DNA of 64,000 nucleotides from Prochlorococcus sp. AG-418-C09 (lineage in GTDB: Bacteria; Cyanobacteriota; Cyanobacteriia; PCC-6307; Cyanobiaceae), in contig QCLS01000003.1 in the NCBI GenBank assembly GCA_003214355.1, positions 1 to 64,000 on the forward strand, in the 5' to 3' direction. Of the stretch, positions 27,218-63,725 are shown one piece after another. The notes under the pieces were generated by a model that made no database searches, was not told the origin of the DNA, and was given only the letters and a program-made list of their open reading frames with translations. The translations under genes were made by a program, and so were the position numbers. Position 1 is the first letter of the stretch. Each line of letters opens with the position of its first letter.

Positions 27218-30200
27218 TATGCCAATGCAATGATTCTTAGGTCTTTGACTCTTGGGATGTAAGGTTGATTATAGTTCTTAAGGACTATCTTAAGTTGGAA
27301 TCCATCATAAGCAGGAGCGTCATCCAAGGTGTATTCAAAATCACCGAAGACAAATGGGTCATTTTGGGGAACCATTAATCCACTATCGGGACGACCATCC
27401 GTGTTAAAGAACTCAAAGTTCAAGTCATCAGGGTCACCAGTATAACCTACTGGTACTAACTTATACATCACCTGTATCGTTGAAAACTCAAATGTATTTG
27501 CTGCCATTGCCACTTTGACACCAGTAGCGGAGTTATCCAATCTAGCGAGTCTAGTGATGTATATAGCAGCGTTCTCATCGCCTATTCCAGAGGTAGGAGC
27601 AGCGTTGTTGATGAGGTTCGCAGTAGTTGTGACACTCATACGTTGTGTGTCTACTACAGGAGATAGGTGTGTAACGTCAGAGAAGAAGTTTAACTCTAAG
27701 TCTAAAGATTTACCACCTGACATATTACTAATTTCATTTTGCTTAGAAGCAATGACCTTAGTAGCAAGGAAGTAATTGATATCATTTAATGTGATATCTC
27801 TAAATGTAGTGTCTTTAACAAATGAAGTCTCAGCAGTGTAACCAGCTGGGAAAGGTCCTGATGATGTACCAGAAGTACCTAACGCTCTAGCACTGATGCT
27901 ACAGCCTGGTTGTGCTTGAGTCTGTATTGAAGGAGTAAGTACATCCCATGGTATATTTTGTGAGATAGAAACATTGTCTCCACCCGCTGTCAATGTCTTA
28001 TGTGCTTTGACCCCTGTAATGTTTAATCTATACTTATGAGGACTGTTCAATGTAGTCAATCCACCAAATGTAGATGTATGATGTGTGCCATTTATCTTAG
28101 TGAGAGGTATTCCTGCTAAGTTATAGCATTCTACTGTAGCACCAAGTATATGAGCTGTTCCAGTAGCAGCACCTGAGTTAGTTACTGGATCCCAATTTCT
28201 ACCACTCACTGAACCCGCATTATGTCCAACAATATCAACAACCCAATCAGGAGATCCAGTATTGATATTCTCGTATGCGATAATTTCATCACCAATCTTG
28301 AGGAAACCAGGATTGGTATCGGATACAGCAGGGGCAGAGTTGCCAGGTCCGATGTTACCACTAGCAGCAGATAAACTAGCTGCCTGTGAAGCATTACCTC
28401 CAATACAAACATGGAAGTTACCCGCTTCGATCAGAGTAATCTGTGATACACCTGAAGCTGCTAGAGCAACCTTAAGTGTAGTATCACCAACCTCAGACTT
28501 AACACCACTCATCACAACATAGTTGAGTGATGACTGCATACCATGATTACTATGGAATACATCAATATATGTGTTGTCGTCTGTAGTAGCAATAGCGTTT
28601 GGTAGAGCACTTATGAATCCACCATTGTTCTCTTCCAGTGTGGCGTTGTTTAGAATCACCTTAGACTGGCTGAGAGTTGTAGGTAGAGTAAAGTCTGCTC
28701 TGTAGATCTTGAACATCAAGTCTTCAAACTGTGATGGTGTCCAAGTAGATGCGTTCTGTGACTTGAATAGAACACCGATATATGGCTGTTCAGAGATCTT
28801 CTCTCCTGCGTGAGCAGCATCAATAGCATCTTCACCTAATAGTGAGATGAATACTTTATATTGGTTTGAGTCAGATGTAACAACAATAGCATGTTCCTGT
28901 TGATGTCCGATGAACACAGGAGATTCAAATGTAAATGTTGTTGGTGTTGAAGCATCAGTAGATGTTACTACATCTTTTGCTTGTTTAATAACTTTAGAGA
29001 AAGGAACGATGGTCTGTGTAGGTGTACCATTTTCTACTGTCCTTATATCAATAGCAACTGGAATCTCAAAGTCTTTCTGTTGGAAGAATAGATCAATCTT
29101 AGTTAAGAATACACCACCCTCTAAGTTCTCATCTTGAATCAAGAATGTCTGTGCTAGTGGGTCAGACCATAGAGTTCTGTTCTGAGTGAACTTCTGCTCA
29201 TCAATCTGTGCGTTACGCACAGATATAATAGTCTCCTGTGTAGTCTGTAAGATACCTGTAGCAGCGTATTCTGTCTGTGCTGATGACTCAGACTCACCTT
29301 GTACCTGTGAATCATTAACTGTATCAGATAGACGGAAGATACGTGTACCTGTCTTAAACTTAGGATTAGTTGCTTTGCTTGGATCAGGTATAAAGAATGT
29401 ACCCTTAATAAATCCAGCTGGGTCTGTGATTAGTTTTCTTTCTTTAACTTTCGCTTTAGCACCTGAACTTTGTCCGACAAGGATTTCATTCGGGATTGGA
29501 TTGCCAGAATACGCTCCGAGAGCTTGAGCAGCAAGAGCACTGGTATCAAGGTTAATCCAGCCGAGGTTCGCTGTGTAGTCGGATACCGACGATATATTAA
29601 CGTTCGTGTATGGGTTGACTGTGTAGTTATCATTAGGTTCTAATATCCTTAATGAGCATCCAGAGGTGAGACCTTTTACTGTCTCTCCAACTTGGAATGG
29701 TGTACTATTAGTATCTGCATCATCTGTTGGGTTCTTTGTCACCTCAAGTAGTTTAGGTGTAACGAATGCTTTGATATCTACCCCATCAAAGAATGGATAG
29801 AATCTTGTCTTAGGCTTAAGTTTCTCACCCTTAAATTCTATGTTTCTGGAACGCATGTTCTGTATGTGTTCCACAGATACAACCTTATTACCTAAGCTCT
29901 GCTGTTCGATAACAGGTGTAATCTTATGTCTGATACCAGATCTTGTCTGGTCAGTTCTAATTCTTGTGAATACTTCAGTTCTTGTTCTACGACGCTTACC
30001 CTTACCAGTTGTTACCTGTCTTGTCTGTTGTACAGCACCTGACCATGTAGTCTGCCATGATCCCCACTGAATAGGTGTAATACCATTCTGATCAGCGTTG
30101 AATGAACGTAGACTTGTCATGTAGTTACCTTCAACCACAGGACCTTGTATAGCAGCAAGTGATTTAGTATCTACCCAATCATCTGATGCAGGAGTTAACT

Positions 30201-57352: not shown

Positions 57353-57413
57353 ATTGTAGTCTATTTTGTTGGAAAAAATAGCATTGATTGTGACACAAAT
57401 AATATTGTCACAC
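57353..57413 (-). promoter_or_regulatory. Dyad site 5 with TACAAT promoter
   Basis: TACAAT (57353-57358) serves the gene at 57322. The dyad at 57392-57413 reads GTGTGACAAT ... TTGTGTC on the minus strand, 17 of 22 bases matching site 1. In addition the perfect 7-bp arms TGTGACA/TGTCACA flank it (57389-57412). Spacing to the -10 is 33 nt. Confidence 0.6.
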
Positions 57414-57605: not shown

Positions 57606-57773
57606 TTAGTGCCTGTCTGAGATGTACCATACCCCATAGTTGTTTATTCTTTGGGGTTCAAAGTTTCTCTTTGACATTTCAAAGAGTGCTGCCTTAACAA
57701 CTGGATTGTTAATTGCTGTTTCGTTAGCAAGTACCTTTCCGTCGTAGATAGGTCTTAATTGAGAGTCAAACAT
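57606..57773 (-). CDS. Small early protein (55 aa), first gene after dyad site 1
   Basis: Start at the ATG at 57773 (MFDSQLRPIYDGKVLANETA) rather than the longer frame at 57854, which would run through a promoter. The rest is a soluble mixed helical region (NNPVVKAALFEMSKRNFEPQ) with an aromatic end (YGVWYISDRH). The -10 box sits 25 nt upstream of the ATG. Not recognised. Confidence 0.65.
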   Translation of the reverse strand: MFDSQLRPIYDGKVLANETAINNPVVKAALFEMSKRNFEPQRINNYGVWYISDRH

Positions 57774-57797: not shown

Positions 57798-57891
57798 ATT
57801 ATAGTTCGGATTACACATAATAATGACAATAAAGGACACTAATATAAGTGGCACACTGCCAGCTTAAAATTCCAGAGCTACATGCTATAAT
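57798..57891 (-). promoter_or_regulatory. Dyad site 1 with promoters on both strands
   Basis: The core CACTAATATAAGTG (57837-57850) is an inverted repeat. On the minus strand TATAAT (57798-57803) lies 31 nt beyond the 22-bp element and serves the gene at 57773. On the plus strand an extended -10 (TGCTATAAT, 57883-57891) begins 32 nt beyond the core, with TATAAT at 35 nt, as it also does at site 2. No -35 box is recognisable in either direction. Confidence 0.65.
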
Positions 57892-57902
57892 GAAGGTAGA
57901 GC

Positions 57903-58142
57903 TCATTTCCCTACCCCCTTTTTAAAATCACATTTCATGTAGTCTTTGATCTCTTCCACCACTTCATCATAGCTATCGTCCCAATAGTTGCGAGCTTCCT
58001 CGATGAACTCATGCTCACCCAGTTTATCGAAGTAATTAAACAAGTCGTTGGATACATACTCCTCTAGGTCTTTGGTGGACATATTGTCCACCATTCTCTC
58101 TGTTAAGAACTCTTTGAGTTCTAGTAGTAATTCTCTATCCAT
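57903..58142 (-). CDS. Acidic helical protein (79 aa)
   Basis: 79 aa, strongly acidic and helical: MDRELLLELKEFLTERMVDN, KDLEEYVSNDLFNYFDKL, EHEFIEEARNYWDDSYDE, ending KCDFKKGVGK. It starts directly after the stop of the DUF1281-like gene and shares its operon. The design is like short acidic inhibitors, but nothing specific can be claimed. Confidence 0.68.
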   Translation of the reverse strand: MDRELLLELKEFLTERMVDNMSTKDLEEYVSNDLFNYFDKLGEHEFIEEARNYWDDSYDEVVEEIKDYMKCDFKKGVGK

Positions 58143-58655
58143 TTATAGATACCCTGCTACTTCACATCCTGGTTCATCATAGAACCACGATACAGACAAA
58201 TCGTCAAACTGTTCACGGATTGCGTAACAAATCTCTTCGGGTGGCGACCATGCTGTATCGAATGTTACTTGAAATCCATGTGGCATGTCAGAGTCCTCTA
58301 TATCCACACAGTAGCAATCCCACTTCGTTCCCCAGTTATGGACTCTCCAGTTGTACCATCTATCATCATTTACATCAGTGCTAGGGAAATATAAACCCCT
58401 GCCAAAACCTTTGTCTTTATATACTGGCAACTCACCGACCTCACCTCTAGGGTTAGAGAATGAATATTCTTTGACATCACTCTCAGCAAGTGGAACTTTA
58501 GACCAGTCTGGTTCGGGTATGAATGATCCAAACACTGTGTCAACTGGTTCTTTAAGTTCATCAGCAAGTGCCTTGTTAAAGATTGCGTGTAGTTTGAGAA
58601 TTGCTGTTGTATCCTCTGAGTAGAATTCTACTCTGTTGTGACAATGATTAGGCAT
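58143..58655 (-). CDS. DUF1281/Api92-like protein
   Basis: 170 aa from the ATG at 58655 (MPNHCHNRVEFYSEDTT); AAGGAG lies three bases upstream, and the apparent longer frame begins with a TTG next to the promoter. The pattern NRVEFYS, then FGSFIPEPDWSKVP, and the WYNWRVHNWGTKWD block at about 110-125 fit the ferredoxin-like fold of DUF1281/Api92-type proteins, found in phages and plasmids. Function is unknown for the family. It is the first gene after dyad site 2 and is followed directly by an acidic protein. Confidence 0.75.
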   Translation of the reverse strand: MPNHCHNRVEFYSEDTTAILKLHAIFNKALADELKEPVDTVFGSFIPEPDWSKVPLAESDVKEYSFSNPRGEVGELPVYKDKGFGRGLYFPSTDVNDDRWYNWRVHNWGTKWDCYCVDIEDSDMPHGFQVTFDTAWSPPEEICYAIREQFDDLSVSWFYDEPGCEVAGYL

Positions 58656-58678
58656 AAACTCCTTAGTTGTATAATACA

Positions 58679-58772
58679 ATTATACTGCCACAGGTGACAG
58701 TATGGTGAAAAAATGGACACTAATATAAGTGGCACATAGCCACGTGAAAAGAAGCATGGTCCTTGCTATAAT
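58679..58772 (-). promoter_or_regulatory. Dyad site 2 with promoters on both strands
   Basis: The core CACTAATATAAGTG (58718-58731) is identical to site 1. Minus-strand TATAAT at 58679-58684 is 31 nt from the element and serves the gene at 58655. Plus-strand TGCTATAAT ends at 58772, with the same 35-nt core-to-TATAAT spacing as site 1, and is followed by the same GGTAGAGCTCAT block. Confidence 0.65.
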
Positions 58773-58783
58773 GGGGGTAGAGC

Positions 58784-58951
58784 TCATAATTCCTCTATGT
58801 CCTCTATGACCCATTCACCTGCATATTCGTCCTCAACATCGAATGCATTTACATTCTTATGCAGGAGCTCTTCGGCTTCCTGCATTGTTTCTGCTTCGAC
58901 TAGCACGGTGAAGTAATTCACCTCGCTGCACTGGATTCTAAATTGATTCAT
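58784..58951 (-). CDS. Small acidic protein (55 aa)
   Basis: MNQFRIQCSEVNYFTVLVEA then ETMQEAEELLHKNVNAFDVE, ending GEWVIEDIEEL. A strand-helix start with an acidic helix and end. Its ATG overlaps the stop of the preceding gene by ATGA, and its own stop overlaps the ATG of the MSST block described in the findings. The strand-helix-strand order is like small conserved cyanophage proteins, but I cannot name it. Confidence 0.6.
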   Translation of the reverse strand: MNQFRIQCSEVNYFTVLVEAETMQEAEELLHKNVNAFDVEDEYAGEWVIEDIEEL

Positions 58952-59452: not shown

Positions 59453-59546
59453 ATAATAGTTCCTAGCCCTGACTAATACAAGTGATAGTGTGCACTAATA
59501 AAAGTGGCACACTCAATGCACTATACGGTGCAGGATTTGCTATTAT
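59453..59546. promoter_or_regulatory. Dyad site 3, divergent promoter
   Basis: The core CACTAATAAAAGTG (59493-59506) differs by one base from sites 1 and 2. It is flanked by a TATTAT box on the minus strand (59453-59458, for the gene at 59438) and by TGC-TATTAT on the plus strand (59538-59546, for the gene at 59553). It is the only site where genes are read in both directions. Confidence 0.62.
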
Positions 59547-59552
59547 AATAAT

Positions 59553-59756
59553 ATGAAAAACTTCCAAGAATTCATCGACTACTGCCTAGACTTCTACGGG
59601 TGGAATGGTCTATACGACCAAGGTCGAACACGTGAGCAAATTGCTTACGCTACTCTATACTACCTTGACTCATGTAATGATCAAATTACTTGGGGATATG
59701 GTGACTCACTCGACAGAGAAAGAGTCCGTGACATTATGAACGAGTTGTACGACTAA
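59553..59756 (+). CDS. Small plus-strand early protein (67 aa)
   Basis: MKNFQEFIDYCLDFYGWNGL, then YDQGRTREQIAYATLYYLDS and an acidic end (DSLDRERVRDIMNELYD). The TATTAT box is so close that the predicted start of transcription coincides with the ATG, and no ribosome-binding site is present: a candidate leaderless message. First of four plus-strand genes. Not recognised. Confidence 0.68.
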   Translation: MKNFQEFIDYCLDFYGWNGLYDQGRTREQIAYATLYYLDSCNDQITWGYGDSLDRERVRDIMNELYD

Positions 59757-61114: not shown

Positions 61115-61173
61115 ATTATATCAGAGATTCTCGGAGAAAATACCAAAAGTGGACAGTTTTATTTCTGGCACAC
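61115..61173 (-). promoter_or_regulatory. Dyad site 4 with TATAAT promoter
   Basis: TATAAT (61115-61120) serves the gene at 61089. The element at 61152-61173 (GTGTGCCAG ... CTGTC on the minus strand) is diverged from site 1 in its centre but keeps the flanks and the 31-nt spacing exactly. The rest of the gap (61174-61295) has a CCTCC/GGAGG hairpin at 61216-61234 and nothing else recognisable. Confidence 0.6.
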
Positions 61174-63665: not shown

Positions 63666-63725
63666 ATTATAATGTAATTTGATAGTCAATTCATGTAATA
63701 GTGTACAGTTATTCTATTGTCACAA
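63666..63725 (-). promoter_or_regulatory. Dyad site 7 with TATAAT promoter
   Basis: TATAAT (63666-63671) lies 22 nt upstream of the UvsW-like ATG at 63644. The element at 63704-63725 (TTGTGACAATA ... CTGTA on the minus strand) shares 10 of its first 11 bases with site 5, and the spacing is 32 nt. It overlaps the stop region of the metallopeptidase gene. Confidence 0.5.

Follow-up and report, generated by a model that had tools for sequence, protein, structure and literature searches.

Two gene borders of a cyanophage carry nearly identical pairs of back-to-back promoters around a short palindrome, and the question they raise is what acts on such an arrangement, why its spacing is fixed, and how it came to occur twice. 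The window, that is, the whole stretch of 64,000 nucleotides that was analyzed, comprises bases 1-64000 of a 189,106-base contig within a 1.6-Mb assembly. The records closest to it are those of the Prochlorococcus phages P-HM1, P-HM2, and MED4-213, annotated as Eurybiavirus, in which baseplate genes and small variable genes are found in an order similar to that of the window. From these nearest records and the like gene arrangement, the contig is taken to belong to a T4-like cyanophage with Eurybiavirus as its relatives. The 64-kb window gave no matches in Rfam or tRNA scans.

The initial annotation had described two of the borders, here called sites 1 and 2, as duplicated two-way promoter cassettes that share a palindromic dyad, a minus-strand -10, a plus-strand extended -10, and a 24-nt block. 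Their parts are as follows.

57831..57856, no strand: site 1 dyad, 26-bp motif, PWM score 25.0, with an exact core CACTAATATAAGTGGCACA at 57837-57855
57798..57803, minus strand: site 1 -10 TATAAT (ATTATA on plus), 40 nt from the dyad center, before gene 57606-57773
57883..57891, plus strand: site 1 extended -10 TGCTATAAT, with TATAAT 42 nt from the dyad center and an implied start at ~57898
Starting at 57883, plus strand: TGCTATAATG of site 1
57895..57906, no strand: site 1 shared block GGTAGAGCTCAT, overlapping the TGA stop of gene 57903-58142 (minus strand)
57811..57906, minus strand: possible small ORF of 31 aa over the site 1 cassette
58712..58737, no strand: site 2 dyad, 26-bp motif, PWM score 25.7, with its core at 58718-58736
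58679..58684, minus strand: site 2 -10 TATAAT, 40 nt from the dyad center, before gene 58143-58655
58764..58772, plus strand: site 2 extended -10 TGCTATAAT, 42 nt from the dyad center, with an implied start at ~58779
Starting at 58764, plus strand: TGCTATAATG of site 2
58776..58787, no strand: site 2 shared block GGTAGAGCTCAT, overlapping the TGA stop of the 55-aa gene 58784-58951 (minus strand)
58680..58787, minus strand: possible small hydrophobic ORF of 35 aa over the site 2 cassette
58682..58703, minus strand: stem-loop of 9 bp with a 4-nt loop, between the site 2 dyad and the minus-strand -10 and overlapping that -10

This description holds, as the shift from site 1 to site 2 is exactly 881 nt for the dyad, both -10 boxes, and the block, with an exact TATAAT on each side of the dyad at both sites. 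The distance of 35 nt from core to TATAAT given at the outset, counted from the end of AGTG, is the same as 42 nt from the dyad center, and the positions of the plus-strand -10 boxes imply the starts first named, 57898 and 58779. GGTAGAGCTCAT was likewise correctly placed over the stop of the next minus-strand gene, the TGA being overlapped in both copies (complement TCA at 57903-57905 in site 1 and at 58784-58786 in site 2). Between the two sites the dyad is identical at 24/26 positions and the 24-nt block at 22/24, whereas the plus-side spacer is identical at 12/26, the minus-side spacer at 4/27, and the sequence beyond the block at 27/74. Because the dyad and block match while the spacers have diverged, it is the spacing that is conserved and not the intervening sequence, again as first described. 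With both strands of the 64-kb window scanned, the exact pattern of TGCTATAATG followed by GGTAGAGCTCAT occurs at sites 1 and 2 only, and the plus-strand promoters of the two sites have no gene start ahead of them. Most likely, a single two-way cassette was duplicated along with its border block to give sites 1 and 2.

At up to three mismatches the dyad has four matches in the window against 0.14 expected, a number reached in none of 100 shuffles; sites 1-3 match exactly and one match, at 28084, has two mismatches. Besides sites 1 and 2, the following dyads lie near the end of the window.

59487..59512, no strand: site 3 dyad, at a divergent border, with a one-mismatch -10 at 41 nt from the center on both sides (59541-59546, plus strand; 59453-59458, minus strand)
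57388..57413, no strand: further dyad, PWM 22.9, with a -10 (one mismatch) on the minus side only
61148..61173, no strand: further dyad, PWM 24.7, with an exact -10 on the minus side only
63700..63725, no strand: further, weaker dyad, PWM 15.6, with an exact -10 on the minus side and two mismatches on the plus side

The site 3 -10 (TATTAT, 59541-59546) puts the predicted start exactly at the ATG of gene 59553-59756, and the same succession of a -10, six bases, and an ATG is also seen in several viral contigs (e.g. L002, L006, and L007); mRNAs from such arrangements would be leaderless.

Recurrence of the cassette at gene borders in relatives had been named as a check on its reality, and the dyad-promoter unit does recur there. 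When viral contigs were scanned for exact copies of the shared core, 23 stretches were returned, and in several of them a -35/-10 pair on one strand follows closely after the palindrome; an iterated symmetric profile returned 378 distinct sites in 144 loci compared with 3 on reversed sequence. Counted from the palindrome center, exact TATAAT boxes number 35 at 40 nt, 70 at 41 nt, and 48 at 42 nt, with 6 at 43 nt, 9 at 44 nt, and 0-3 at each other position shown. A TATAAT with at most one mismatch at 40-42 nt is found on at least one side in 245 of 259 non-redundant dyads and on both sides in 62, in a set that is non-random, as most of the viral contigs were chosen for a dyad or a homologous gene. 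Thirteen whole cyanomyovirus genomes (this contig and 12 isolates) form a fairer set, some of which served to train the motif (this contig, P-HM1, and parts of MED4-213, P-HM2, and P-TIM40). Across them, 142 of 183 profile matches have a -10 by the same criterion, as do 89 of the 117 matches in the eight genomes whose own sequence did not enter the motif; on reversed sequence the profile has 15 matches in the 13 genomes, the -10 criterion is satisfied by 2-9% of single sides at control offsets, and in the pelagiphage HTVC008M a -10 accompanies 0 of 1 profile matches. The dyads with a -10 are distributed as follows.

This contig (C3) 11, P-HM1 9, P-HM2 9, MED4-213 10, P-TIM40 14
P-SSM2 17, P-SSM4 13, P-RSM4 15, S-SSM4 8, S-SSM7 16
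S-PM2 13, Syn9 4, S-SM1 3

The Synechococcus phages S-SM1 (3) and Syn9 (4) have few cassettes compared with the 8-17 of the other 11 genomes.

The unit thus consists of a 24-26-bp palindrome and, on its gene side, a sigma70-type -10; the palindrome center precedes this -10 by 40-42 nt and so lies near -53. At tandem borders a -10 is present on 179/201 gene-start sides versus 38/201 gene-end sides, where border genes were called by a simple ORF caller and 123 of 387 dyads that fall inside a called ORF, together with 7 unclear ones, were left out. The -35 is weak, with at least three mismatches to TTGACA in 149/245 promoters versus 201/245 at control spacing, and is still above that control, with at most two mismatches in 96/245 versus 44. 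An extended TGn is found in 64/245 versus 7 at the control position. The half-sites of the palindrome appear as two classes, TGTGMCAST and AGTGGACAST, and the C/G at the eighth half-site position varies independently on the two sides.

What recognizes the palindrome can be addressed in part from this variation. A stem-loop or intrinsic terminator in the RNA would be expected to show compensatory pairing within the dyad, and the sequence is indeed palindromic, with 126/245 dyads folding at -5 kcal/mol or below. Pairing at the variable mirror positions nevertheless equals independence: positions 8 and 17 pair in 88/245 dyads against 89.7 expected, positions 5 and 20 in 127 against 120.9, and over the 245 dyads pairing is above chance at none of the 11 mirror pairs (smallest permutation p 0.12). 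The compensatory pairing of an RNA element is accordingly missing from the dyad, an RNA stem-loop or terminator is given very little credence, and the lack of mirror covariation indicates that the palindrome is read as a DNA site by a symmetric protein.

That protein is probably a phage activator bound near -53, to judge from the geometry of the sequence, since a center upstream of the -35 together with a weak -35 fits an activator. A symmetric site that adjoins sigma70-type promoters and is phage-specific could also be the operator of a phage repressor that shuts off early promoters; this is held to be quite improbable, as a center near -53 is clear of the -35 and -10 and the fixed phase of 40-42 nt with a weak -35 suits activation better.

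The distribution of the dyad bears on where its activator is encoded. A strict pattern is matched in 13/13 isolate cyanomyoviruses (in S-SM1 through a single one-mismatch hit) and in 0/3 other phages (P-SSP7, HTVC008M, and T4), the reversed pattern matching only in P-SSP7. It is matched in 4 of 61 Prochlorococcus genomes, which is chance level; this host test covers one half-site type, because sites 1 and 2 and the other dyads of the window escape the strict pattern (G000 scores 0). In the assembly that holds the window, the shared core at up to three mismatches has 2 matches outside the phage contig, and the reversed pattern has 5 over the whole assembly. A host factor was considered as the binder and set aside on the chance-level occurrence of dyads by the strict pattern in those 61 genomes. 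As dyads are phage-borne and at chance in hosts, the binder is probably phage-encoded.

With a composite pattern, 84,980 species genomes (one per species) yielded nine stretches, none with a cyanobacterial record title. Among these nine, the dyads on a 188-kb contig filed under Nonlabens xiamenensis (NZ_RMVE01000006.1; L425, L433) are identical to those of P-TIM40. This contig is probably a contaminating cyanophage genome, as judged from its dyads, and the TMED113 contigs NHFO01000061 and NHFO01000063 may be a similar contaminant.

A regulator was sought among proteins present in at least 11 of the 12 other cyanomyoviruses and absent from HTVC008M. Of seven such proteins compared with Pfam, four had no match and the others were Sm-like, DUF3110, and CP12; the candidates by distribution that might be regulators have no Pfam match. 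Ten proteins were scanned against PHROGs, where phrog_385 is labelled a transcriptional regulator, a label with no other support here. Another, phrog_507, is a 100-aa protein (C3 110250-110552, minus strand) found in 12/12 other cyanomyoviruses and absent from HTVC008M, with its first 50 residues highly conserved and predicted to be mostly helical. Its predicted fold, of low confidence (mean pLDDT 70), had no Foldseek match below E 3 and a best VIA Z of 4.0, and no solved relative was found by sequence.

The general element is probably already known. Doron et al. in 2016 reportedly described, in Syn9 and P-TIM40, a novel element by which early genes are controlled and which is said to be abundant and conserved among T4-like cyanophages. 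We take the dyad-promoter element to be probably this early element. The dyad-promoter unit is present in Syn9 (4 copies) and P-TIM40 (14 copies) and is conserved across T4-like cyanophages; the Doron element is not known to include two-way use, a spacer stem-loop, a duplicated block, or an overlapping ORF. Other systems offer more distant likenesses. Halovirus HF2 resembles the cassettes in having intergenic repeats that carry promoters (PMC8707807). HF2 is a virus of haloarchaea, and no palindromic activator site is known to us in its repeats. The middle promoters of T4, which use a MotA box and AsiA, are alike in placing an activator site at a fixed distance from a host-sigma70 -10. The T4 MotA box lies near -30. 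The palindrome differs in having its center near -53. According to PMC5780444, motA and/or asiA are missing from T4-like cyanophages.

Early, middle, and late clusters are reported for P-HM2 by Thompson et al. 2016 (PMC5082946), whose main text does not contain the word motif; motifs upstream of psbA are treated by Puxty et al. 2018 (PMC5931967); and sigma70, T4 late, Pho, and NtcA promoters were searched by Sullivan et al. 2010 (PMC3037559). No description of this palindrome was found in the literature searched, from which absence from print is not claimed, nor did the search yield a description of the -53 geometry, the absent covariation, the spacer stem-loop, the two-way class, or the duplicated border block.

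The suggestion that cassettes are used in two directions extends beyond the pair. Four of the 38 gene-end sides with a -10 belong to the family of sites 1 and 2; outside it, 34/197 gene-end sides have a -10, whereas 27 other offsets give 1-13 (mean 6.8). Exact boxes number 8 there, compared with 0-4 at the other offsets. At 37 divergent borders a -10 is present on 51/74 sides; the 19 convergent borders (20/38 sides) were left out of the two-way test. In the 13 whole genomes 18/142 cassettes have a -10 on both sides, and in the strict scan an exact box is found on both sides in 5/154 distinct cassettes, ~3 of them independent by eye. As far as sequence can tell, the two-way cassette is real but a minority form.

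Relatives of the two borders were compared over 35 of 41 loci in one set (one cut) and 36 of 80 in the other. At the site 1 border, three further contigs (L045, L046, and L063) have exact TATAAT boxes on both sides, as do five at the site 2 border (L088, L089, L092, L105, and L106). At the latter border some close relatives retain a single exact box or no exact box: in L090 and L045 the gene side has one and two mismatches, respectively, and in L071 and L077 the gene side has two and the reverse side one.

Taken together, sites 1 and 2 are read, with fair but not high confidence, as two copies of a T4-like cyanophage regulatory cassette placed at the borders of small variable genes, whose symmetric site would be bound by a dimeric phage activator. 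Such a phage-encoded dimer would bind the palindrome and, from its upstream position, recruit host RNA polymerase to the -10 located 40-42 nt away, presumably early in infection. Its symmetry would let the site work for promoters on both flanks. The minus-strand promoters would drive genes 57606-57773 and 58143-58655, and the plus-strand promoters, if active, would give RNA antisense to the upstream minus-strand genes.

A different account of the fixed spacing comes from the 24-nt block. On the minus strand it reads ATGAGCTCTACC and opens an ORF of 31 codons at site 1 and 35 codons at site 2 across the cassette, the site 1 block on that strand being an ATG followed by codons of the small ORF. 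The spacing and block might then be mainly protein-coding, reflecting a 31-40-aa hydrophobic minus-strand ORF (ATGAGCTCTACC...) that overlaps the upstream stop as ATGA, with the plus-strand TATAAT corresponding to Ile-Ile codons by coincidence; this is regarded as possible but somewhat doubtful. The frame is open through the dyad in 13/14 distinct instances, two of which are the window's own; in the variable part of nine site-2-type sequences its z is 3.75 against column shuffles, with 0/1000 as high and the best of six frames; and in L058 an in-frame insertion displaces the start. Over the whole 63 nt, however, another frame scores higher (z 3.39 versus 2.0), and at the site 1 border of L071 only 15 block-frame codons are read before a stop that precedes the dyad, while the block stays and so does the -10 (one mismatch, 42 nt). 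Third codon positions, compared in 12/14 instances, show 0 changes in the six block codons versus 19 in the next 11, and invariance there implies that the block is also under constraint as DNA or RNA. The TATAAT, moreover, has the same distance as in the class as a whole, and other borders without the block have reverse -10 boxes. Conservation of the frame means that identical spacing may in part be coding, so that fixed spacing as a cassette feature is seen but is partly attributable to the overlapping small minus-strand ORF; we think that both constraints, coding and DNA/RNA-level, act.

In an exact scan of viral contigs the block was found in 16 stretches, 2 of them in the window's own contig, and L295 and L297-L302 have its letters without a dyad. 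A mobile 24-nt block was considered and rejected, as dyad-bearing copies occur only at two known border types; the initial claim of a block shared by both sites stands with that restriction.

Sites 1 and 2 had also been likened to the promoter early stem-loops (PeSLs) of T4-type phages, which were reportedly described by Arbiol et al. in 2010 and by Comeau et al. in 2014. A PeSL comprises a sigma70-type promoter at a gene border of a variable region with a joined stem-loop, and recombination between related phages occurs there. The cassettes resemble PeSLs as repeated sigma70-type promoter units at variable-gene borders, often with a stem-loop, and these borders coincide with changes in gene order; at both sites an exact TATAAT flanks the dyad on each side at a variable-region border. 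From the palindrome to the -10, the spacers fold at a mean of -6.6 versus -3.0 kcal/mol for shuffled sequence, and 107/245 fold at -6 kcal/mol or below against 29.9 expected from shuffles that preserve base counts only. Within the pair, a joined stem-loop is found only on the minus side of site 2 (-9.7 kcal/mol, with 0/200 shuffles of the same kind as low); folding does not exceed that of shuffles on the plus side of site 2 (105/200 as low) or on either side of site 1 (67 and 116 of 200).

Gene neighborhoods are also less stable at cassettes. At tandem borders in dense regions, adjacency of neighbors is kept across a cassette in 9/52 comparisons versus 127/266 without one, counts that are not independent, rely on the same simple ORF caller, come from 10/13 genomes with small per-genome sizes, and leave aside 608/660 and 3610/3876 pairs made uninformative by one or both orthologs missing. 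By genome, the values with and without a cassette are as follows.

C3 0/8, 11/44; P-HM1 3/4, 31/38; P-RSM4 1/12, 13/37
P-SSM4 0/3, 4/14; S-SSM7 0/1, 0/3; MED4-213 2/3, 33/41
P-HM2 2/9, 26/35; S-SSM4 0/10, 7/22; P-TIM40 1/2, 1/11
P-SSM2 none, 1/21

Adjacency across cassettes is lower in seven genomes, equal in one, and higher in one (P-TIM40). Among 36 loci compared at the homologous border upstream of gene 58143-58655, a dyad is present in 16; another 19 lack it and differ in their upstream sequence, and the remaining locus is cut. Such behavior at borders is how PeSLs are described (see also PMC4503421, where a PeSL mechanism is judged unlikely for gene gain in S-PM2).

That the cassettes are true PeSLs, i.e. 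units of a promoter and a terminator stem-loop through which genes are shuffled by homologous recombination, draws on their position at gene borders, on the spacer stem-loops above shuffles in 107/245 promoters, and on the lower adjacency, and is nevertheless rated unlikely. The constant part of the cassettes is a palindrome for a protein, and site 1 has no stem-loop above shuffles, for which reason the pair is not classed as PeSLs. Strong hairpins, comprising spacer and -10, are followed by at least five T in eight in only 32/129 cases, so that most are not terminator-like. The adjacency counts, besides being non-independent and drawn from 10/13 genomes, are reversed in P-TIM40 (1/2 versus 1/11), and the edges of transcription units are expected to break more often anyway. 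The likeness proposed at the outset thus stands for the spacer stem-loops and the adjacency (9/52 versus 127/266), and fails for site 1, which has no stem-loop, and for the dyad, which is a DNA site.

The reading of sites 1 and 2 as copies of an activator-dependent regulatory cassette can be carried further, tentatively and with real doubt about the whole. One cyanophage activator would serve orientation-free cassettes; about one in seven of those at same-direction borders would also fire backwards, giving early antisense RNA over the preceding gene, and the cassettes would be mobile borders that shuffle variable genes.

T4-like cyanophages abound in the ocean, and the genome-wide use of one palindrome at one distance points to a single phage regulator that could be hunted by pull-down. 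The palindrome-promoter set would make its regulon predictable from sequence in uncultured phages, and the cassettes allow a concrete test of whether regulatory cassettes, rather than genes, set the borders of gene exchange.
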